Assembly: GCA_902521155.1 (NCBI GenBank)
Contig: CABYQR010000009.1
Location: 1 to 42,838, forward strand
Reading direction: 5' to 3'
DNA: 42,838 nt
Source of the DNA: an uncultured Alphaproteobacteria bacterium
GTDB lineage: Bacteria > Pseudomonadota > Alphaproteobacteria > HIMB59
Made by a program: the position numbers and the translations under genes. Under the pieces are notes generated by a model. It saw only the letters and a list, made by a program, of their open reading frames with translations. It was not told the DNA's origin and did no database searches. Shown one piece after another: positions 18,682 to 29,480 of the stretch (within the stretch, counting starts at the first letter, position 1; every line of letters starts with the position of its first letter).

Positions 18682-19326
18682 ATGAATTATAGCTTCAGAA
18701 AAAAAAATAAAAAAGTCAAATATATAGTTATCCATTACACAGGTATGATATGCTTTGATAGGGCTTTCTCTAAGTTAAATAATTTGAGCTCAGATGTTAG
18801 TTGTCACTATCTAATATCAAAATCAGGATTAATTTTTAATTTACTATGTCCAAGTTTTAAAGCTTGGCATGCAGGAAAATCACAATGGAAGAATTTAAAA
18901 AATTTAAATGATTATTCTGTGGGTATAGAATTAGAGAACAAAGGGCATGACCATGGATACAAAAATTTTTCAAGTAATCAATATTCTTCTTTAAAAGAAC
19001 TTATTGCTTTTTTAAACAAAAACTTTCGAATTCAACACCAAAATATTATCTTTCACTCTGATATATCTCCTAATAGAAAAAGAGATCCAGGTGAAAAATT
19101 TATAATTTATAAAGCAGGTATTAGTAGATTTAAAAATAATACCCCCTACAAGATAAAGTATTCAATTTTAGATTTACTTAAAATATATGGTTTTAGTGAT
19201 TTTTATTTAAAAAAATATAAATCTGATTGTATTATGGCTGTAAAAAGAACTTTAAACTACAGAGAAATAAATAATAAAATTGATAATAAGTTTAAATTAG
19301 ACTTTTATAATTTATTATTCAAATAA
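18682..19326 (+). CDS. N-acetylmuramoyl-L-alanine amidase, AmpD type (Amidase_2)
   Basis: Zinc amidase that splits the muramic acid-L-alanine bond of (anhydro)muropeptides. There is no signal peptide, so it is probably cytosolic and serves wall recycling, as AmpD does. The zinc ligands are visible: His18 (VIHYTG), His125 (IIFHSDISP) and Asp135 (KRDPGEKF), plus Glu83 in GIELEN. The first beta strand starts at residue 12, so the ATG at 18682 is the only workable start; an in-frame stop lies 33 bp upstream. The C-terminal 60 residues are a basic helical tail. An amidase before rnpB and mraZ is a common alphaproteobacterial order. AmiD-like activity cannot be excluded. Confidence 0.9.
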   Translation: MNYSFRKKNKKVKYIVIHYTGMICFDRAFSKLNNLSSDVSCHYLISKSGLIFNLLCPSFKAWHAGKSQWKNLKNLNDYSVGIELENKGHDHGYKNFSSNQYSSLKELIAFLNKNFRIQHQNIIFHSDISPNRKRDPGEKFIIYKAGISRFKNNTPYKIKYSILDLLKIYGFSDFYLKKYKSDCIMAVKRTLNYREINNKIDNKFKLDFYNLLFK

Positions 19327-19343
19327 ATTTATATATATTAATT

Positions 19344-19675
19344 ATGGGTAGCGTGCAGTCGCTTTGTTTTTCAAAGAGGAAAGTCTGAGCTCACGTAGAA
19401 AGTAATAACGGATAACTTCCGTCGAGGGTAACCTTAGGGAAAGTGCAGCAGAAAATTACCGCCGAAAGGTAAGGGTGAAAAGGTGAGGTAAGAGCTTACC
19501 GGATATTTAAAATATATCGCAATATGCAAACCCTATTACGAGTAAGATCAAATAGAGGTTAAAACTATTTCTACAGTTGACCTGGGTTGATCGCTAGAGT
19601 TGATTAGTAATAATTGACCTAGATAAATGACTGCAAATTAAACTTAATTACAGAACTCAGCTTATAGCTACCCAT
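19344..19675 (+). ncRNA. rnpB: RNase P RNA (type A)
   Basis: Catalytic RNA of ribonuclease P, which matures tRNA 5' ends. The 5' strand ATGGGTAGC (19344-19352) pairs exactly with GCTACCCAT (19667-19675), forming the closing P1 helix. Inside are GAGGAAAGTCTGAGCTC (start of P2/P3 and CR I), AGGGTGAAAAGGTG and GGTAAGAGCTTACC (P11-P12 region), GAGTAAGATCAAATAGAGG (the CR IV area), and the near-universal ACAGAACTCAGCTTAT next to the 3' end. The length of 332 bases fits a bacterial type A molecule. A TATATA at 19332-19337 is placed for a -10 box. No strong terminator follows. This fills the only gene-free stretch over 300 bases (19327-19723). Confidence 0.96.
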
Positions 19676-19681
19676 AATCTA

Positions 19682-19710
19682 TTTACTATTTCCTTAAATT
19701 CCCATATAAT
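19682..19710 (+). promoter_or_regulatory. Promoter of the mraZ-led dcw operon
   Basis: TTTACT at 19682-19687 matches four of six bases of the sigma-70 -35 element. It is followed after exactly 17 bases by a perfect TATAAT at 19705-19710. Transcription would start near 19717, leaving a leader of about 7-13 bases before mraZ. It lies just 3' of the RNase P RNA gene. This is the best-formed promoter I can see in the window. Confidence 0.65.
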
Positions 19711-19724
19711 CCCATGAGATACCA
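19700..19724 (+). promoter_or_regulatory. MraZ-type operator: three 5-mers at 10-bp spacing
   Basis: On the plus strand TCCCA (19700-19704), TCCCA (19710-19714) and TACCA (19720-19724) are each separated by five bases. The other strand therefore reads TGGTA-N5-TGGGA-N5-TGGGA. In E. coli, MraZ represses its own operon by binding TGGGN repeats with N5 spacers. The repeats cover the TATAAT box and run into the mraZ start codon, so binding would block transcription. Site and spacing are seen; autorepression here is inferred. Confidence 0.6.
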
Positions 19725-20140
19725 TGATAATGTTTCTATCATCATTCGAGGGCATATTAGACTCTAAAAATAGAATATCGATACCTTCAACATTCAGAAA
19801 TACAATTTCATTATCTAAAGAAAGGGTTTATCTTTTTAAAAGCTTAAAGTACTCATGTTTAGAAATTCATCTAGCCTCGAAAATTAATTCTTTAATAAAA
19901 AGCTTTGACGAAAAAGATTTTTTTTCAAAAAAAAATGACCATTTTAAGACAGCAATTCTTTCAGACTTAGAGGAGGTTTTTATTGATAAGGATGGTAGGA
20001 TTATCTTAAGAGAAATGCACCAAACTTTCTCCAAAATCTCTAAAGATATTATTTTTATAGGTAAGGGAAATCATTTTGAAATATGGCAAAAAAATTTAGG
20101 TGAAAATCATAAGATATCATCAAGAAAGAAACTTAAATGA
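19724..20140 (+). CDS. mraZ: transcriptional regulator MraZ
   Basis: DNA-binding regulator of the division and cell wall operon, related to AbrB. The 138 residues hold two SpoVT/AbrB-like MraZ halves: SSFEGILDSKNRISIPSTFR near 6-25, and a second half with VFIDKDGRIILREMHQTF, which repeats the D-x-x-GRI pattern. The ATG at 19724 is given as the start, but its third codon, ATG 19730, gives the family-like MFLSSFEG and is equally or more likely. No Shine-Dalgarno site is visible. It leads the dcw operon, overlaps rsmH by 4 bp, and is preceded by a probable MraZ operator. Confidence 0.94.
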   Translation: MIMFLSSFEGILDSKNRISIPSTFRNTISLSKERVYLFKSLKYSCLEIHLASKINSLIKSFDEKDFFSKKNDHFKTAILSDLEEVFIDKDGRIILREMHQTFSKISKDIIFIGKGNHFEIWQKNLGENHKISSRKKLK

Positions 20141-21045
20141 TAACTAATCTACATAAGCCTATTATGGTTAATGAAATTTTATCATTCATCAACGATGAGA
20201 AAGAACTATCAATATTAGACTGTACTTTTGGAGGAGGAGGGCATGCCAAAAACTTTTTAGATAAAGGTCATTATGTTACTGCTATTGACCAAGATAAAAA
20301 TGCTATTAATGCAGCAGAAGATCTTTCTAAAAGTAATAGTAATCTTTCTTTCTATAAAATAAACTTCAAAGATCTAGATAAGATAGATGAAAAAAAAATT
20401 CATGAAAAATTTAATTTTATACTTCTAGATCTTGGTTTTTCTTCAAATCAGCTCGAAAATGAAAATATAGGTATTTCCTTTAAAATTAATTCAAAGTTAA
20501 ATATGAATTATTTAGATGGAGGTGTCACTGCTCATGAAATTATTAATAACTATAATATTGATGAACTAACAAGAATTTTTCAAGAGTATGGAGAAATTAC
20601 ACATTCTAAGAAATTATCTGAGTTTATAATTAAAGCTAGAACAAAAAAAATAATAAATACTAATTTTGAATTAATAGAAGTTATTCGAAATAGTGGAATA
20701 AATTTTAGATCTAAAAAAATCCATTTTGCTACACAAGTCTTTCAAGCACTTAGGATAGAGACTAATAAAGAAATAAATAATTTAAATAATTTTTTACATA
20801 AAGTTCATTCATTTATTGAAAAAAAAGGGTATCTGGCAATTATTTCCTTTCATAGTCTGGAGGACAGAGTAGTTAAAAATTACTTCAAATCAAATAGTTT
20901 TAATAAAAAATATATTTTTAACAATAATCTAGATTGGGGCTATGAAATCTTAACAAAAAAACCATTAACACCCTCAAAGAGTGAAATTAAGCAAAATAAT
21001 AGAGCTAGGTCTGCAAAATTAAGGGTAGGTAGGTTCGTAAATTGA
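20137..21045 (+). CDS. rsmH: 16S rRNA (cytosine(1402)-N(4))-methyltransferase
   Basis: Methylates N4 of C1402 in 16S rRNA with S-adenosylmethionine. The 302 residues match the family. HKPIMVNEIL at 6-15 opens the protein, the SAM-binding motif DCTFGGGGHA is at 28-37, and LLDLGFSSNQLE near 98-109 follows. The C-terminal ISFHSLEDRVVKNYF and NNRARSAKLRVGR signatures complete it. It is the second gene of the dcw operon, as usual, and overlaps both mraZ (ATGA) and ftsL (TTGA) by 4 bp. Confidence 0.97.
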   Translation: MITNLHKPIMVNEILSFINDEKELSILDCTFGGGGHAKNFLDKGHYVTAIDQDKNAINAAEDLSKSNSNLSFYKINFKDLDKIDEKKIHEKFNFILLDLGFSSNQLENENIGISFKINSKLNMNYLDGGVTAHEIINNYNIDELTRIFQEYGEITHSKKLSEFIIKARTKKIINTNFELIEVIRNSGINFRSKKIHFATQVFQALRIETNKEINNLNNFLHKVHSFIEKKGYLAIISFHSLEDRVVKNYFKSNSFNKKYIFNNNLDWGYEILTKKPLTPSKSEIKQNNRARSAKLRVGRFVN

Positions 21046-21335
21046 TAAGACAAGTATCAAAGTTTTTTATATTATTTATTTTAATAATAATTTTTATTTA
21101 TTTTAAAAATTATACAAAAATATTAAATAATGAAATAAATTTAGTTAAGATTAACTATGAAAAAGAATTACAACTTTATTTAAAAAGAGAGATTCAACTT
21201 ACAAAAATGGTAAATCAAATTCAATTTGAAGATTTAAAAAATCAATATGCTAATAATCAAGACGTGATACATTTCGATAGAAATACATTAAATGACTTCA
21301 CTTTAATTAAAGTTAATTATGATAAATCTCAATAA
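21042..21335 (+). CDS. ftsL: cell division protein FtsL
   Basis: Small bitopic inner membrane protein that joins FtsB and FtsQ at the divisome and helps activate the FtsWI synthase. The 97 residues show the family layout without strong sequence motifs: a very short cytoplasmic start, one membrane helix (about 7-22, FILFILIIIFIYF), and a periplasmic heptad-type coiled coil (about 25-75). The TTG start at 21042 overlaps rsmH. The assignment rests on topology and position between rsmH and ftsI. The 3' end overlaps ftsI by 17 bp. Confidence 0.85.
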   Translation: MIRQVSKFFILFILIIIFIYFKNYTKILNNEINLVKINYEKELQLYLKREIQLTKMVNQIQFEDLKNQYANNQDVIHFDRNTLNDFTLIKVNYDKSQ

Positions 21336-22776
21336 TGAAACTGATTATAAGCTTTTAGATAAAACAAATACTTTTTATAACTTTTTTATATTTGTAACTT
21401 TAATATTATTTTTAGCGATTATTTTTAAATTATTTTATATATATTTTGAAAAAAAAGAAAAATATAATTTCTTAAAATATAATGAAAATTTAAATTTTCT
21501 CCCAACCATATATGATGGTAGTGGTAATATTTTAGCTTATTCTGATTATAGCTATTCAATTTTTACAAATAAAAATAAATTTTCCTATATAGAAAGAGAT
21601 GCTTCTTCCGAAGATATAAAAAAAATTTTGTATCAAAGTGATCCTAATATAAAATTTGAAAAAATTCTTACTAGAAAATATCCATATAAGCAAATCACTA
21701 ATAATTTTTTGGGACAGGTTGACATAGATCACAAAGGTATTTCTTTAATTGAAGCCAAATTAAATTCATTAAATAAAAATATTAAAACTTCCATTAACCT
21801 TCAAATTCAACAAAAAATATTTAGTGCATTGAAAGAAGATTCTTTGAAACTTAGACCAGACTTTTCTTTAAATGTTTTAATAGATTTAAGTAAGGAGGAG
21901 ATAATAAGTAATATTTTTATAGACAATCAAGACAATCCTTTTGATGAATCTTATATGCCATTAAAAGACTCTATCTTTGAGTTTGGATCTGTATTTAAGC
22001 CTTTTACCGTTTACTCTGCCATAAAGAATAATAAAATAAATCTAGAAGACTATTTTAATGTAGATGAACCTGTTTTCATTGGACAAAAATTAATTGAGGA
22101 TTTTCCAAAAAATAGTCAAATACCATTTCAAGTAAAAGACATTCTAAAAAAATCTTCAAATAGGGGGGCGGTATTAATAAGGAGAATGTTAGACTGTCAA
22201 AAAGAATTTAAAAATGATCTTGAAACTATAGGCCTTCTCAATCCCACGAGTATAGGTTTTGATTTAAGTTCAATAAAACCAAATGTTAACAACTTTAGAG
22301 GTTCCTACTGTGATACCATTCCTTACGGGTATGGTTTATCTGTGAGCCCTATTCAGTTATTAAACGCTTATGGGAAAATTATTACAGGAAGAGTTGATTT
22401 TAATGCAACTATTGAGAAAAATGATTTCCAAAAAGAAAACATATTTAATAATAACTCTAATACAATAAATAAGCTTTTATTCTATGCTAATGAAATAAAT
22501 AATGATCTTTATCAAAATTTCCTAGTTGCAGGTAAAACAGGTACCGCTGATAAAACTATAGGAGATAATTCTTTTCAGAATGTAGCTTATATTAGTTATT
22601 TTCCATATAATGATCCTAAATACTTGAGTCTAACTTTCATGCAAAATCCTAAAGAAAAATATGGACCATTCATGACAGCAGGTAATACGGTAAAACCTAT
22701 TTTTTTTAACATACTAAAGAAAATTTATATGGATCTAGATTTAACTATTTTAAGAAATCAAGGTACAGATATTTGA
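21319..22776 (+). CDS. ftsI: septal peptidoglycan transpeptidase FtsI (PBP3), compact form
   Basis: Class B penicillin-binding protein that cross-links septal wall. One membrane helix lies at about 21-42, then a reduced pedestal domain, then the transpeptidase domain with Ser224-V-F-Lys227 (SxxK), Ser279-S-Asn281 (SxN) and Lys406-T-Gly408 (KTG), so the active site is complete. At 485 residues it is about 90 shorter than typical proteobacterial FtsI. The pedestal lacks the usual R-G-x-I-x-D-R-N-G motif, reading TIYDGSGNILA in its place. It overlaps ftsL by 17 bp and murE by 4 bp. Confidence 0.94.
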   Translation: MINLNNETDYKLLDKTNTFYNFFIFVTLILFLAIIFKLFYIYFEKKEKYNFLKYNENLNFLPTIYDGSGNILAYSDYSYSIFTNKNKFSYIERDASSEDIKKILYQSDPNIKFEKILTRKYPYKQITNNFLGQVDIDHKGISLIEAKLNSLNKNIKTSINLQIQQKIFSALKEDSLKLRPDFSLNVLIDLSKEEIISNIFIDNQDNPFDESYMPLKDSIFEFGSVFKPFTVYSAIKNNKINLEDYFNVDEPVFIGQKLIEDFPKNSQIPFQVKDILKKSSNRGAVLIRRMLDCQKEFKNDLETIGLLNPTSIGFDLSSIKPNVNNFRGSYCDTIPYGYGLSVSPIQLLNAYGKIITGRVDFNATIEKNDFQKENIFNNNSNTINKLLFYANEINNDLYQNFLVAGKTGTADKTIGDNSFQNVAYISYFPYNDPKYLSLTFMQNPKEKYGPFMTAGNTVKPIFFNILKKIYMDLDLTILRNQGTDI

Positions 22777-24149
22777 AAGATTTAATAAATTTAAAAAAAA
22801 AAAAATATAAGATTGATATTAATTGGCAAGACCTTACAAAAAAATCTATTTTTTTCCTAAATACCCATAATAAAAAAAATTTTATTAACTTTCAAAAGTA
22901 TGCAATTAAAAAAAATTGCAGTTATATAATTTGTAGTGACAAATATAGAAATGAACAAATTACTGGATTAATATATTTTTATTTTAAAGATGAAAAAGAG
23001 TTATACTTAATAGCTAAATTATTTTTTAAACCCCTAAAATTGAAATTAGTATTTTTAACAGGCACCAATGGTAAGACTTCTGTAGCATATGGCTCACATC
23101 AATTAATGTCACTTAATAACGTCAAATCCTGCTATATAGGCACGTTAGGATTTTATATAAATTCAAAAAAAATAAAAAATTTAAAAAACACAACACCAAG
23201 CTTTTTTGAAATTTTAATATTACTCTCTCATGCTGAAAGATTGAATGCGAATTACGCTTTTATTGAGGCATCTAGTATTGGCTATAACGAAGGTAGATTA
23301 GGTTATTTAAAATATAACTATTGCTTATTAACAAATTTAAAATCTGATCATTTAGATTATCACGGAAATATAAGAAACTATCATAATTCAAAACTTAATA
23401 TCATCAATAATCATTATAAAAAAAATTCAAAAATTTTAATACAAGATCAAATAAAAAATAAAAAGTTAGATAAAATTAAAAATAAAATAACATTACAAGA
23501 TGATTTTATTAAAAAATATAAATTTAATATAATTAAAAAAAATAGATATTTTGAATTAATTACTAATCACAGAACTTATAAAATTATGACATTCAATAAT
23601 TTCGTTATTAAAAATACTATTTCAATTATTTTATTATATTTTTCAATTTTTAAAAAATGGCCAAAAAAATTGACAAATAAAATATATGCTAAAGGAAGGG
23701 CAGAAATTGTATATGAAGAGAAAGAAGCAATAATTATGGTTGATTATGCTCATTCAGCTGATGCATTTGAGAATTTATTAACAAGTATTCCTAATTATTA
23801 TAAAAATAAAATTGTCTTATATGGATGCGGAGGTGACCGAGATATCACTAAGAGACCTAAAATAGCTAAAACCGTTTCTAAGTATAGTAGTCTGCAATTA
23901 ATTACTGATGATAATCCAAGAAATGAAAACCCCAAATCAATAAGAGATACATTATTACGAAATTCTAAAAATGCTATTAGTATTGCAAATAGAGAAAAAG
24001 CAATAAAATATGGTGTCAAATTGATTAAGAAAAAAGGTGGAATACTTATTGTTGCTGGTAAAGGTCATGAGAATACTCAAATAATTAAAAATAAAATTAA
24101 TAAATTTAGTGATCAATTAATTATAAAAAAATATGCAAAAAATATTTGA
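22773..24149 (+). CDS. murE: UDP-N-acetylmuramoyl-L-alanyl-D-glutamate--meso-diaminopimelate ligase
   Basis: Adds the third residue to the peptidoglycan stem peptide. The 458 residues hold the ATP loop GTNGKT at 97-102 and the central Mur ligase domain with IEASSIG and NLKSDHLDYHG. The C-terminal domain carries Asp380-Asn-Pro-Arg383, the DNPR motif that marks meso-diaminopimelate (not lysine) as substrate; GKGHE follows near the end. It starts with TTG overlapping ftsI (TTGA). Codons 7-11 contain a run of 13 A (22793-22805). It overlaps murF by 17 bp. Confidence 0.96.
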   Translation: MKDLINLKKKKYKIDINWQDLTKKSIFFLNTHNKKNFINFQKYAIKKNCSYIICSDKYRNEQITGLIYFYFKDEKELYLIAKLFFKPLKLKLVFLTGTNGKTSVAYGSHQLMSLNNVKSCYIGTLGFYINSKKIKNLKNTTPSFFEILILLSHAERLNANYAFIEASSIGYNEGRLGYLKYNYCLLTNLKSDHLDYHGNIRNYHNSKLNIINNHYKKNSKILIQDQIKNKKLDKIKNKITLQDDFIKKYKFNIIKKNRYFELITNHRTYKIMTFNNFVIKNTISIILLYFSIFKKWPKKLTNKIYAKGRAEIVYEEKEAIIMVDYAHSADAFENLLTSIPNYYKNKIVLYGCGGDRDITKRPKIAKTVSKYSSLQLITDDNPRNENPKSIRDTLLRNSKNAISIANREKAIKYGVKLIKKKGGILIVAGKGHENTQIIKNKINKFSDQLIIKKYAKNI

Positions 24150-25425
24150 TAAAATTCTATCTATTAAAGACAAATATAAATCAAGTATAGTTTTTGACAC
24201 GAGAAATTTAAAAGAAAATGATATCTTCGTAGGAATAAAAACACAAAAAAACGACGGTAGTTTATTTTACAAAGACGCTGTAAGAAAGAAAGCAGGATTA
24301 ATTTTAATTAATAATCCAAAAATTAATCATCAAAATATATTTCAAATTAATAATATTGATAATTTTATTTTAAATTTTTGTAAATTCCTGCTTTCTCAAT
24401 ATAATGGTAAAATTATAGCAATTACCGGGTCTGTAGGTAAAACAACAATAAAAGAAAATATTTTTAATATTTTAAAAAAAAATAACTTTCTTGTCTCAAA
24501 GTCTTATAAAAATTTTAACAATAAATTAGGCCTTCAATTTTCTATAATGAACATGAATCTTAATTCTGATTTCTCTATTTTTGAATTAGGAATTAACGCC
24601 CCTCGTGAAATGAAATCTCTTATAAATATTTTGCATCCTCATTACTGTTTGGTTACAGGTATTGAAAATTCACATATTGGTAATTTTAAAAATTTTAATA
24701 ATCTTATAAATAATAAAATTCAAATTTTTCATTCTAAAAACCTAATAAAGGGTCTCATCAATTTTTCTCATTCAAAACCAGATTTAACAAAAAAAATTAA
24801 ATCAAATATTCAACTAGTTAATTTTGATAAAATTAAGGTATCAGTTTATAAAAAAACTAAATACAGTATAAGTTTTAAACACAATTTTAAGAAACATAAT
24901 ATTGAGTCAGATTTAAATGGCATTTATATAGAGACTGCTATTATTTCATATTTGTTTCTTAAAAGATTTATTAAAAAATTTCACTCAGAAAAATTCTTTT
25001 ATTCTAAGTCAATTATTGACTCTAGGGGTAACGTAATTAATAAAGATTATAAAAGTAAAATAATTAAGATTTATGATCATAGTTACAATTCGAGTCCATA
25101 TTCTCTCAAGAAGCAACTATTTTTTTTTAATCAAAAAAAAATATCAAAAAAACTCTGTATTATTGGTTCTATGAAGGAACTTGGAAATAATTCATCCAAC
25201 TATCATATTGAAATTTTAGATATAATATCTTCCTTTAATTTAGGTAAAACTATTTTTATTGGATATGAATTTTTTAAGCTTAAAAATATGTATAAAAATT
25301 ATAAATTTTATAAATCATATATAGATTATATAAAAGTAATGAATAGAGATTTAAATAATTTTGAAAATATTTTTGTTATGGGCTCTAGATCAAATCAACT
25401 TGAAAAAATTATTGAAAAAATATGA
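24133..25425 (+). CDS. murF: UDP-N-acetylmuramoyl-tripeptide--D-alanyl-D-alanine ligase
   Basis: Adds D-Ala-D-Ala to complete the UDP-MurNAc pentapeptide. The 430 residues show an N-terminal substrate domain with FDTRNLKENDIFVGI, the ATP loop TGSVGKT at 98-104, and NFNNKLGLQFSIMNM. FELGINAPREM, GIENSHIGNF and a C-terminal domain with IYDHSYNSSPYS and GSMKELGNNS follow. All these are MurF hallmarks, although the rest is strongly drifted to Lys, Asn and Ile. It overlaps murE by 17 bp and mraY by 4 bp. Confidence 0.95.
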   Translation: MQKIFDKILSIKDKYKSSIVFDTRNLKENDIFVGIKTQKNDGSLFYKDAVRKKAGLILINNPKINHQNIFQINNIDNFILNFCKFLLSQYNGKIIAITGSVGKTTIKENIFNILKKNNFLVSKSYKNFNNKLGLQFSIMNMNLNSDFSIFELGINAPREMKSLINILHPHYCLVTGIENSHIGNFKNFNNLINNKIQIFHSKNLIKGLINFSHSKPDLTKKIKSNIQLVNFDKIKVSVYKKTKYSISFKHNFKKHNIESDLNGIYIETAIISYLFLKRFIKKFHSEKFFYSKSIIDSRGNVINKDYKSKIIKIYDHSYNSSPYSLKKQLFFFNQKKISKKLCIIGSMKELGNNSSNYHIEILDIISSFNLGKTIFIGYEFFKLKNMYKNYKFYKSYIDYIKVMNRDLNNFENIFVMGSRSNQLEKIIEKI

Positions 25426-26498
25426 TTAGTGACTTTTTGTATTCCTTAAAAGATATTCATCCTTTTTTTAATTTATTTTATTATATTTCTTTTAGAGCTG
25501 GTTTATCTTTAGTTTTATCATTTTCTCTTGTTTTATTGTTAATGCCTATGTGGATTAATGTTCAAACTAAGTTATTTCCTAAAGGACAACCTATTAGAGA
25601 TGATGGTCCACAAACTCATTTATCTAAACAAGGTACTCCTACTTTTGGTGGTGTTTTAATTATTTTTTCAATAATAATAAATACGATATTTTGGACTACT
25701 GAATTTTCAAATTTCAATTATATTTTACTTTTAACCCTGATCTTATTTGGATCAATAGGTTTCTACGACGATTATCAAAAAGTAATTTTTAATAAAGGTA
25801 TTAGCTCAAAAAGAAAGTTTTTTCTTCAATTTTTAATTACTATTTTATTATATTTTATAATTATATCCAACGGATATGATCTTAATAATTTTTATATTCC
25901 TTTTTTTAAAAATATTTCAATTGAGTTAGGTATTTTTTATTTTGTTATAATTTTATTTATTATTATAGGTTCTACTAATGCAACTAATTTAACAGATGGT
26001 TTAGATGGATTAGTAAGTATGCCATTAATTTTTGTTTTTTTAACCTTTGCAATTTTTGCCTATATACTTGGAAATATTAATTTTTCTGACTACCTACTTG
26101 TAAATTATATCCCTGGTTCAGGTGAAATAGTTATTTTCTGCACAACGTCAATTGGTGCCTTACTTGGTTTTTTATGGTTTAATTCAAGTCCAGCTTCAAT
26201 ATTTATGGGAGATACTGGATCCCAATCTTTGGGGGCCTCCTTAGCGGTAGCTGCAATATTGTTGAAACAAGAATTTGTATTAGCAATAGCGGGAGGACTA
26301 TTCGTTATTGAAGCTCTATCTGTAATACTTCAAGTATTTTATTTCAAAACCTCAAGCGGAAAAAGGTTGTTCCTTATGGCACCTTTACATCATCATTATG
26401 AGAAAAAAGGACTCACAGAACAAAAGGTTGTCATAAGATTTTGGATAATAAGTTTCTTATTCTGTCTTCTTGCCCTATCTCTGTTGAAAATTAGATAA
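25422..26498 (+). CDS. mraY: phospho-N-acetylmuramoyl-pentapeptide transferase
   Basis: Inner membrane enzyme that transfers phospho-MurNAc-pentapeptide to undecaprenyl phosphate, forming lipid I. The 358 residues form about ten membrane helices. Conserved motifs are GQPIRDDGPQTHLSKQGTPT (cytoplasmic loop), Asp116-Asp117 in YDDYQK, NATNLTDGLDGL near 187-198, FMGDTGSQSLGA, and the late APLHHHYEKKG. The ATG overlaps the murF stop (ATGA); murD starts on the next base after the stop. Confidence 0.98.
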   Translation: MISDFLYSLKDIHPFFNLFYYISFRAGLSLVLSFSLVLLLMPMWINVQTKLFPKGQPIRDDGPQTHLSKQGTPTFGGVLIIFSIIINTIFWTTEFSNFNYILLLTLILFGSIGFYDDYQKVIFNKGISSKRKFFLQFLITILLYFIIISNGYDLNNFYIPFFKNISIELGIFYFVIILFIIIGSTNATNLTDGLDGLVSMPLIFVFLTFAIFAYILGNINFSDYLLVNYIPGSGEIVIFCTTSIGALLGFLWFNSSPASIFMGDTGSQSLGASLAVAAILLKQEFVLAIAGGLFVIEALSVILQVFYFKTSSGKRLFLMAPLHHHYEKKGLTEQKVVIRFWIISFLFCLLALSLLKIR

Positions 26499-27737
26499 TT
26501 GATAGATTTAAAAAAAAATTTTTTAATTTATGGTTATGGTATTAGTGGAAAATCTATATCTAAATATCTAAAAAATAAAAATTCTAACTATCAAATCTAT
26601 GATGATAATATTATCTCTTCAAAATCTCCTAAAGTCATAAATAAAAATTTAGTCATTAAAAATATTAAAAAATTTGATTATTTTATTGTTTCGCCATCTA
26701 TAAAAATTGACAAAAATCATTTTCTATTCCCCTATAAAAATAAAATAATTATTGATCTAGATTTCTTATCATTAGAATTAAAGCAACAAATTATTATTGG
26801 CATTACAGGAACAGAAGGGAAATCAACAACATGTCAATATCTTAGCCAAGCTTTATCTAGAAAGTATAAAAATATTATTATAGGAAATTTTGGAAATACA
26901 ATTTTAGATAAGATAGACATTAATAAGTATATAAACACTCTAGATATACTTATTATCGAATTGAGTTCCTATCAGTTAGATAAAATAAAGTTTTTAAAAC
27001 TTGATCATGCCTTAATAACTAATATTTATTGTGATCATATAGATTACCATAAAAACTTTAATAATTATGTTAAAACAAAGTTTAAGATCCAATCTATTCT
27101 TAAAAACAAAGGTTCATTTCATATAAATCAAAAAGAATTGTTATCTTATAAAAATCTTATTAATTTTAACAAATTTAAGATTTGCAAATTTAAAAATGAA
27201 ATAACATCTAATGAAAGTCTTGATAATCAAATAATGCTTTTAAATCAACCTGCAGTCAATAGTGTGATCAAAATGATTGATAATTCATTAAAACTTAATG
27301 GTGTTTTATTTAAAAATTTACCATTTAGGAATCAATTAGTTAAAAACAATAATAATCTTAAAATATATAACGATAGTAAGTGCACTAATATAGAAAATGC
27401 AATTATGAAAAATAATTTATTTCTTACTAATAAGAAAATTCTTATTCTTGGTGGAAAACCAAAAATATTTCATAAGAAATTTATAATAGAAAAAACTTTA
27501 ATCCTTTTATTTGGTGGCTATGCATATCAAATTTCTAAAAATTTAGTGTATAAAAATTCTAATGCCTTTATTTTTAACAATTTATTCGATTTATTATCTT
27601 TTACTAAAATTATTACTCAAAAATTTGATTATGATACAATTTTATTTTCTCCTGGCGGTGAATCTTTTGATCAATTTAAAAATTTTAATGAAAGAGGAAC
27701 ATATTTTAATTCATTGATTAAGAAATTGAAATTTTGA
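26499..27737 (+). CDS. murD: UDP-N-acetylmuramoylalanine--D-glutamate ligase
   Basis: Adds D-glutamate to UDP-MurNAc-L-Ala. The 412 residues begin with a Rossmann-like domain (YGYGISGKSIS, about 10-20). The ATP loop GTEGKS at 104-109, IELSSYQLD and NIYCDHIDYHKNF follow, then the C-terminal domain with LPFRNQL, YNDSKCTN and LGGKPK. In most MurD proteins the middle motif reads NDSKATN; here the Ala is Cys. The start is TTG at 26499, directly after the mraY stop. The ftsW start overlaps its stop (TTGA). Confidence 0.95.
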   Translation: MIDLKKNFLIYGYGISGKSISKYLKNKNSNYQIYDDNIISSKSPKVINKNLVIKNIKKFDYFIVSPSIKIDKNHFLFPYKNKIIIDLDFLSLELKQQIIIGITGTEGKSTTCQYLSQALSRKYKNIIIGNFGNTILDKIDINKYINTLDILIIELSSYQLDKIKFLKLDHALITNIYCDHIDYHKNFNNYVKTKFKIQSILKNKGSFHINQKELLSYKNLINFNKFKICKFKNEITSNESLDNQIMLLNQPAVNSVIKMIDNSLKLNGVLFKNLPFRNQLVKNNNNLKIYNDSKCTNIENAIMKNNLFLTNKKILILGGKPKIFHKKFIIEKTLILLFGGYAYQISKNLVYKNSNAFIFNNLFDLLSFTKIITQKFDYDTILFSPGGESFDQFKNFNERGTYFNSLIKKLKF

Positions 27738-28837
27738 AAGATATACTTTTTAGAGATGATAAAAGTTTGCTTGGGGGTAATTGGTATAAATTATCAAAAA
27801 AACTTTTCGTTATACCCTGTATTCTTATTTTTGTTAGTTTGATTGCAATTTATTCTCTAATTGGAACTGAATATTCTCTTATTCTTCTTGTTAAGCATAT
27901 CTTATATTTATTAATTTCTATTCTTACTTTAATTTTTATATCCCTTTTACCAATTAACGATTTAAGAAAGCTATTAAACTTATTGTCTATTTTATTTATC
28001 TTCCTTCTATTTTTAGTTCCTTTATTGGGCTATGAAATTAAAGGCGCAACTAGGTGGATTAATTTTTCCTATTTTTCTATTCAACCATCTGAAATATTAA
28101 AGGGACCTATAATTTGTATATTTTCTTGGTTTTGTTATCTTTATACCAAAACTCATCGGATTTTTTATATCTTCTTAAATCTTTTAATTTTTTTAATAAT
28201 TATTACTTTGCTCTTATTGCAACCTGATATTGGTACTTTATTGATTTATTTATCATGTTTTTCATTAATTTTAATTCTTTATATAAGAAAAATAAAATTA
28301 TTCTTTCTATTAGGTTTTATTGGCATTTCTTTTATTATCATTGCCTATTTGAGTTTTGAGCATGTTAACTTAAGAATAAACAATTTTTTATTTACTGATA
28401 ATTTGCAAGTAACTAAGAGCCTTTCGGCTATTAAAGAGGGTGGCTTATTTGGAGTAGGTCTCGGTGAAGGTCAGTTAAAATACTCTATTCCAGAATCACA
28501 TAATGATTTTATCTTTGCTATCTTAGTTGAAGAATTCGGTTTACTATTTGGATTATTTATAGCCTTGCTTTATCCAATTTTCTTCATTATTTCAAAGAAA
28601 TCATCAATTAATCCCTCAAATTTATTTATTCAAAATACCATTTTTTGTTTATGTTTTGTTTTGTGTTTGCAAGCTTTTGTAAACATAGGTTCATCAATAG
28701 ATCTCATACCTCCAACTGGTATGACCCTACCTTTTATTAGTTATGGGGGTTCATCTATGCTTTCTTATGCTTTAATTTTTGGTACAGTCATTTGCTTTTC
28801 TAAAAATGAAGAAAATTCTACTTATAACCCATCATGA
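27734..28837 (+). CDS. ftsW: septal peptidoglycan glycosyltransferase FtsW (SEDS family)
   Basis: Polytopic SEDS protein that polymerises glycan strands at the septum with FtsI. The 367 residues have about nine to ten hydrophobic segments. Visible motifs are GYEIKGATRWINF near 97-109, QPSEILKG, QPDIGTLL, the long periplasmic loop with GVGLGEGQLKYSIPESHNDF and EEFGL, and the C-terminal PPTGMTLPFISYGGSSM. The start is TTG, coupled to murD. It is the last recognisable dcw gene here; murG, murC, murB, ddl, ftsQ, ftsA and ftsZ do not follow. Its 3' end overlaps the next gene by about 32 bp. Confidence 0.96.
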   Translation: MKDILFRDDKSLLGGNWYKLSKKLFVIPCILIFVSLIAIYSLIGTEYSLILLVKHILYLLISILTLIFISLLPINDLRKLLNLLSILFIFLLFLVPLLGYEIKGATRWINFSYFSIQPSEILKGPIICIFSWFCYLYTKTHRIFYIFLNLLIFLIIITLLLLQPDIGTLLIYLSCFSLILILYIRKIKLFFLLGFIGISFIIIAYLSFEHVNLRINNFLFTDNLQVTKSLSAIKEGGLFGVGLGEGQLKYSIPESHNDFIFAILVEEFGLLFGLFIALLYPIFFIISKKSSINPSNLFIQNTIFCLCFVLCLQAFVNIGSSIDLIPPTGMTLPFISYGGSSMLSYALIFGTVICFSKNEENSTYNPS

Positions 28838-29480
28838 TCTTGGAGATCCCGGAGTAATCACCAATATACTCCAAAAAGACTATTTACTATCAACCATTAA
28901 CTATAAAAATTTAAAAAAACTAAAGTTAAGTGAGATTAACACTTATTCACTATTTATTTTTATTGGAGGAAATATGAGTGCTAATAGCAAATCTAGATAC
29001 ATTTTGTATGAATATCAATTTTTATCATCACTTATTGATTTAAATAAAAATATACTTGGTATTTGTTTAGGAGCACAAATGATAGCTAAAATTTATGGTT
29101 CAAAAATATCTTATTCTAAAAATAAAATTATTGAGGTTGGATATAGAAAAATAAAATCAAATAACCATAAATATTTCAAAGATGATATGAATTTTCTTCA
29201 ATTTCATAATGAGGGTATTACCTACAACTCTTCAATGGATATATTAGCAAGAGGTAGACTATTTGAAATAGATGCATTTAAAATTAAAAATAAAAATATA
29301 TTTGGTTTTCAATTTCATCCTGAAGTAACAAATTCCATGATAAAAAGTTGGTATAATGATCTTGATATGAAAAAAATTGGGATAGACAAATTAGATATTA
29401 TTTTGAAAGATCATAATAAGTTTAATAAAATTAACCTTATTTGGATTAAAAGAATTCTTAATAAGTTATTAAATGATTAA
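28806..29480 (+). CDS. class I glutamine amidotransferase-like protein
   Basis: A 224-residue stand-alone class I glutaminase domain, related to the GMP synthase-like amidotransferases. The catalytic triad is present: Cys87 in LGICLGAQ, His171 and Glu173 in FQFHPEV. The nucleophile strand is preceded by FIGGNMSANSK, in place of the usual GGPGS oxyanion segment. No synthetase domain is attached and the ammonia acceptor is unknown. A TTG at 28779 could extend it by nine residues, but ATG 28806 gives the natural first strand MKKILLITHH. It overlaps ftsW by 32 bp and the next gene by 8 bp, so it is co-translated with both. Its function cannot be named. Confidence 0.85.
   Translation: MKKILLITHHDLGDPGVITNILQKDYLLSTINYKNLKKLKLSEINTYSLFIFIGGNMSANSKSRYILYEYQFLSSLIDLNKNILGICLGAQMIAKIYGSKISYSKNKIIEVGYRKIKSNNHKYFKDDMNFLQFHNEGITYNSSMDILARGRLFEIDAFKIKNKNIFGFQFHPEVTNSMIKSWYNDLDMKKIGIDKLDIILKDHNKFNKINLIWIKRILNKLLND

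Follow-up and report, generated by a model that had tools for sequence, protein, structure and literature searches.

The question raised by this locus is whether MraZ, encoded by the first gene of a cell-wall and division gene run, controls the promoter from which that run is transcribed. The window, i.e., the whole stretch of 42,838 nucleotides analyzed here, belongs to an uncultured alphaproteobacterium, and a preliminary description had read the region in front of mraZ as TTTACT-N17-TATAAT overlapped by TCCCA-N5-TCCCA-N5-TACCA. This reading was confirmed base for base. A -35-like hexamer TTTACT (19682-19687, plus strand) is separated by 17 bases, read directly from the sequence, from the -10 hexamer TATAAT (19705-19710, plus strand), which lies within the spacer between the first two of three predicted MraZ boxes. 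The boxes, assigned to the minus strand, are TCCCA (19700-19704; TGGGA on the minus strand), TCCCA (19710-19714), and the imperfect TACCA (19720-19724), their starts at 19700, 19710, and 19720 following an exact 10-bp period. The repeat can equally be written as the 7-mers TTCCCAT (19699-19705), ATCCCAT (19709-19715), and ATACCAT (19719-19725) with 3-base spacers. Thus, the -35 element stands outside the putative operator and the -10 element between boxes 1 and 2, while the last base of box 3 is the A of ATG 19724; the coordinates bear out both that the array overlaps the -10 box and that it reaches the start codon. Judged from the position of the -10 hexamer, transcription is expected to start at 19716-19718 on the plus strand, leaving a leader of ~6-8 nt to the ATG.

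Promoter and repeat array differ in the weight they carry. TTTACT/TATAAT matches 10 of 12 consensus bases and is the best among 11 promoter-like sites in 19200-20200, compared with 5.0 +/- 2.0 sites in shuffled sequences. Since shuffles yield such sites as well, the promoter match alone is weak evidence, and it is its conservation that counts. The repeat pattern is a strong signal: CCCA-N6-CCCA-N7-CCA occurs a single time in the genome assembly (1.11 Mb, 78.2% complete), namely at the mraZ promoter, and its backwards control does not occur in the same 1.11 Mb. No RNA fold was found in the leader (z 0.96), which points to an element acting at the DNA level.

The gene itself (mraZ, 19724-20140, plus strand) matches the Pfam family MraZ (PF02381) with 57.6 bits against a cut-off of 23, in two stretches. 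Its product contains two MraZ domains with both D-x-x-x-R motifs present (D-S-K-N-R and D-K-D-G-R), and D13/R17 and D88/R92 are identical when this protein, E. coli MraZ, and one other alphaproteobacterial MraZ are aligned. Overall identity to E. coli MraZ is only 17%, and matches to the NCBIfam MraZ equivalogs stay under the respective cut-offs. The solved MraZ chains 9qlr, 9qlg, 9sx6, and 1n0e were found when the E. coli sequence was used as query. A second in-frame ATG follows at 19730; because the first ATG is kept in 28/28 same-genus loci and the second in 26/28, ATG 19724 is probably the start. With this start the expected leader measures ~7 nt, and no obvious ribosome-binding site was seen by eye.

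MraZ was present in 49 of 60 relatives, comprising 28 of 37 genomes of the same genus (the window's own included) and 21 of 23 genomes of the sister family f2, and all 49 loci were used. The repeat spacing was sought upstream of mraZ in these relatives, and the boxes were kept in the 28 same-genus loci; the lack of conservation that would speak against an operator was not observed. The block TCCCATATAATCCC is invariant in all 28 loci, including TATAAT. Box 1 is TCCCA in every locus and box 2 in 27 (one TCCCG), so that the CCC of both is invariant, and box 3 reads TACCA in 26 and GACCA in two, its core ACCA being kept throughout (28/28); its conservation may partly be that of the start codon itself. 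The -35 hexamer occurs in variants (TTTACT in 19 loci, TTTACA in three, TTTGCT in three, and three others once each), and the bases separating it from box 1 have drifted, e.g., column 19692 is conserved in 12/28 loci. In the sister family, 21/21 loci contain four CCCA boxes with 10-bp spacing, oriented as in the window and often reading CCCATTGACGCCCATATAATCCCATGATAACCCAT. Among relatives with mraZ, the array is therefore conserved in 28/28 loci of the genus and 21/21 of the sister family.

Extension of the survey to the class Alphaproteobacteria detected MraZ in 331 of 389 genomes. From the best-scoring matches listed, 89 loci were examined, most but not all representing one per family; as the source list was sorted by score, this sample is biased toward good MraZ matches. 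Upstream of mraZ, 60/89 loci carry at least three exact CCCA boxes at 10 bp, 20 carry two, and nine carry one or none. Three or more CCCA boxes at periods of 7, 8, 9, 11, 12, or 13 occurred in none of the 89 loci, and three TGGG boxes in one. A weight matrix with the consensus TTCCCATTGACnCCCATnnnATCCCATGnTATCCCATA scored >8 bits in 83/88 loci, compared with none on reverse strands (best 5.4) and none in shuffles, the matrix having been trained on the same sequences; the other five loci lay at or below 8 bits. Locus L104, offering 31 nt upstream, was left out of this set, and the upstream region of L097 is short. Thirteen of 14 further class genomes also exceeded 8 bits, three of them, all from family f17, reaching only 9.7 to 14.2; the MraZ start of G410 was poorly located. 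A complementary search with a 24-base composite against a contig set of 84,980 genomes returned 77 stretches, all titled Alphaproteobacteria or taxa within; these overlap the genomes of the 60 relatives, hence are non-independent, and two stem from one Cohaesibacter strain. In 75 of them MraZ follows the site with matching orientation, and the other two stretches end within ~120 bases of the site.

Promoter elements are interleaved with the boxes in many of these sites. A TTGACA-like hexamer (at least four of six bases) lies between boxes 1 and 2 in 50/83 class sites, TGnTAT between boxes 3 and 4 in 49/83, and both together in 41/83. In this half of the sites the pair is, as predicted from sequence, a -35 and an extended -10 element at 17 bp, both placed inside operator gaps. 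The layout of the window, in which the -35 precedes the array and the -10 falls between boxes 1 and 2, could be clearly recognized in one of the 83 class loci (L075), from a 1.3 Mb genome with an AT-rich upstream region. L110 is a second formal match, but has TTGAC inside the array as well.

The orientation of the repeats had been described as inverted compared with E. coli, and this is true: the coding strand reads CCCA here and TGGG in K-12, where TGGG is found at -43, -33, and -23 upstream of mraZ, downstream of the -10 element as judged by eye. Among 28 loci from those listed for 100 non-alphaproteobacterial Pseudomonadota genomes (62 with MraZ), 17 have two or more TGGG boxes at period 10 (three boxes in three loci), seven have two CCCA boxes, and none has three. 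Considering CCCA arrays in 60/89 loci of the class and three CCCA boxes in 0/28 loci outside it, the inversion is the usual alphaproteobacterial form in the loci examined rather than a peculiarity of the window's genome.

The E. coli mraZ operator, with its MraZ boxes, was reportedly described in the 2014 work of Eraso. It resembles the window array in having three 10-bp repeats with the core TGGG beside the mraZ promoter, upstream of mraZ-rsmH-ftsL, box 3 of the window being imperfect. Unlike the window array, the E. coli boxes read TGGG on the coding strand and lie downstream of the -10 without overlap; the window locus does not show this layout, its CCCA array overlapping the -10. In Burkholderia cenocepacia, the accessible sections of PMC7761207 describe 7-nt repeats with 3-nt spacers beside the mraZ promoter (PmraBc), studied by EMSA with MraZ; they were found by their GTG motif and are placed across the start site, downstream of the -10. 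The 7+3 layout is shared with the window, PmraBc having four repeats. The site of the Mollicutes MraZ is given as (AAAGTGKN3)3 in the corresponding part of PMC5282649, i.e., likewise three direct repeats of 10-bp period in a 7+3 layout with a different core. Within the CC-licensed PMC literature, as far as its searchable text extends, no description of an alphaproteobacterial CCCA operator was found. The Rhodobacteraceae UpsM/mraZ region is also an alphaproteobacterial dcw promoter: according to the portion of PMC5089854 available, the R. sphaeroides dcw transcription start was mapped 268 nt upstream of mraZ, and the UpsM/mraZ leader is long and has a terminator, compared with the ~7 nt expected here. 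The words “repeat” and “CCCA” are absent from the main text of that paper. In family f17 (possibly Rhodobacteraceae), the alphaproteobacterial type of site begins 307-353 nt upstream in 5/6 genomes, three with weak scores. If transcription began ~41 bases into the site, leaders would measure ~266-312 nt, a loose match to 268 nt that is compatible with the layout, no more.

Taken together, 10-bp repeats with a TGGG core (here on the minus strand) directly before mraZ and their conservation in genus and class support the proposed identity as an MraZ operator, a reading drawn from sequence comparison. An alternative would be that the repeats are bound by another regulator such as CtrA, NtrX, LexA, DnaA, or a methylation-dependent factor. 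Excerpts of the literature mention CtrA sites upstream of S. meliloti mraZ (PMC4414408) and NtrX binding upstream of R. sphaeroides mraZ (PMC7240162), and a LexA-type box lies upstream in the sister family. Against this, 19601-19760 contains no exact match to TTAA-N7-TTAA, GCA-N9-TGC, GANTC, GAAC-N7-GAAC, or a DnaA box, and the repeat, read on the opposite strand, matches the TGGG boxes of E. coli and shares their 10-bp period, leaving another binder very improbable. Marginally less probable still is that the conservation merely reflects promoter and start codon, the boxes arising incidentally from a short leader combined with a strong -10. The conserved block does contain TATAAT and ATG, with box 3 overlapping the latter; however, a -35/-10 promoter makes no demand for the CCC that boxes 1 and 2 retain without exception, and elsewhere in the class the array starts a median of 125 nt ahead of MraZ, clear of the start codon.

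A third proposal adds to MraZ autorepression rather than replacing it: bound MraZ would also block read-through from rnpB, end the RNase P RNA, and couple its level to the division genes. The gene for this RNA (class A, 19343-19680, plus strand; Rfam RF00010, 245.6 bits) lies directly upstream, one base separating the end of the Rfam match from TTTACT, and in all 28 same-genus loci the last rnpB stem ends 7-11 nt before the -35. A terminator scan of 19200-20200 found no intrinsic terminator between rnpB and mraZ, the only one detected being on the minus strand. An rnpB signature precedes mraZ in 28/28 f1 loci, in 21/21 of the sister family, and in 42/89 of the class, compared with 1/89 in the reverse-strand control. 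Against such a roadblock, processing often generates the 3' end of RNase P RNA, and across the class the signature is either distant (136-607 nt in the 42 loci) or was not found within up to 900 nt (47 loci). The gene order rnpB-mraZ is also listed for Pelagibacter in the part of PMC2704228 available. We regard this additional role as improbable, if less so than the two preceding alternatives.

Several side observations concern LexA. GAAC-N7-GAAC, which we take to be the alphaproteobacterial LexA-type box, is located just upstream of the MraZ operator in 21/21 loci of the sister family. In 12 genomes of this family, RGAACA-N5-RGAACA yielded 48 matches versus seven for the control, and 30 listed matches were assigned by their neighboring ORFs to mraZ (8), lexA (4), umuD-like genes (5), nrdA (7), or remained unclear (6); one example each of the lexA, umuD-like, and nrdA neighbors was checked. 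This pattern suggests SOS control of the division operon in the sister family; for gut bacteria, the section of PMC3998124 available reports an mraZ site bound by LexA. In 12 same-genus genomes the strict LexA-type motif was rarer than its control (15 versus 24). In two loci of the window's genus (L309 and L310), the lexA start codon directly follows a stop codon (TAAATG), and the gene has no LexA-type box close upstream; L309 carries GTTC-N7-GTTC 273 nt from lexA. An apparently broken lexA in this genus was discarded, as the flagged stop is the TAA just before the ATG in the two loci examined. A search for second MraZ targets with the strict operator pattern in 12 genomes gave one extra site in each of two sister-family genomes (G037 and G040); the G037 site lies antisense inside a coding sequence and is taken as chance. 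The strict pattern was not detected in G030, where box 2 reads TCCCG.

In respect to what the promoter would serve, control of the whole wall and division operon had been proposed, which proved too wide. Based on ORFs and NCBIfam matches, mraZ is followed on the plus strand by rsmH, a 97-aa ORF at the ftsL position, an ftsI-like gene, murE, murF, mraY, murD, and ftsW (20137-28837), of which ftsI-like, murF, murD, and ftsW fall short of the curated cut-offs set for their best-matching NCBIfam models. After ftsW comes a glutamine amidotransferase ORF (28779-29480) that starts inside the 3' end of ftsW, so that the division operon may continue into unrelated genes; by eye, no ORF after ftsW resembles murG, murC, murB, ddl, ftsQ, or ftsA. 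The ftsZ-family match sits on another contig, and the division cluster thus looks split.

We are highly confident that the array is the operator through which MraZ represses its own split division and cell-wall operon, presumably by blocking polymerase binding. MraZ would bind the three direct repeats at 10-bp spacing (ATCCCAT-N3 on the coding strand, of ATGGGAT type on the other) and compete with RNA polymerase for the promoter, and its accumulation would lower expression from mraZ to ftsW. Competition is the likeliest mode, as the array extends over the -10 and has boxes on both sides of the expected start, repeat 3 running from just beyond that start into the start codon; binding, repression, start site, and occlusion at this locus are all inferred. 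MraZ is described as a repressor in E. coli and M. genitalium in the text portion of PMC8475190 available, which also states that overexpression of M. gallisepticum MraZ was accompanied by more FtsZ, a sign that the direction of MraZ control can differ. Read-through from rnpB might also supply mraZ transcripts independently of this promoter. Starting from the commonest single layout among the class sites, with TTGAC between boxes 1 and 2 and the extended -10 TGnTAT between boxes 3 and 4, the window's genus would have lost the first box together with TTGAC and come to use an upstream -35, its -10 lying one 10-bp turn further upstream. Only tentatively, and as a rather unlikely whole, we consider a distinct alphaproteobacterial MraZ switch, in which the reversed array interleaved with the core promoter blocks polymerase recruitment and, in the streamlined marine genus of the window, the promoter has moved by one repeat and the array additionally halts transcription entering from rnpB.

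MraZ regulates division in a wide range of bacteria; in the portions of the literature covered, its operators have been described for E. coli, Burkholderia, and mollicutes. An operator of reversed polarity and altered position relative to the promoter, common across the Alphaproteobacteria, would make it directly testable how a single DNA-binding protein can repress in both orientations, and the CCCA array provides a ready search motif for MraZ control in this class.
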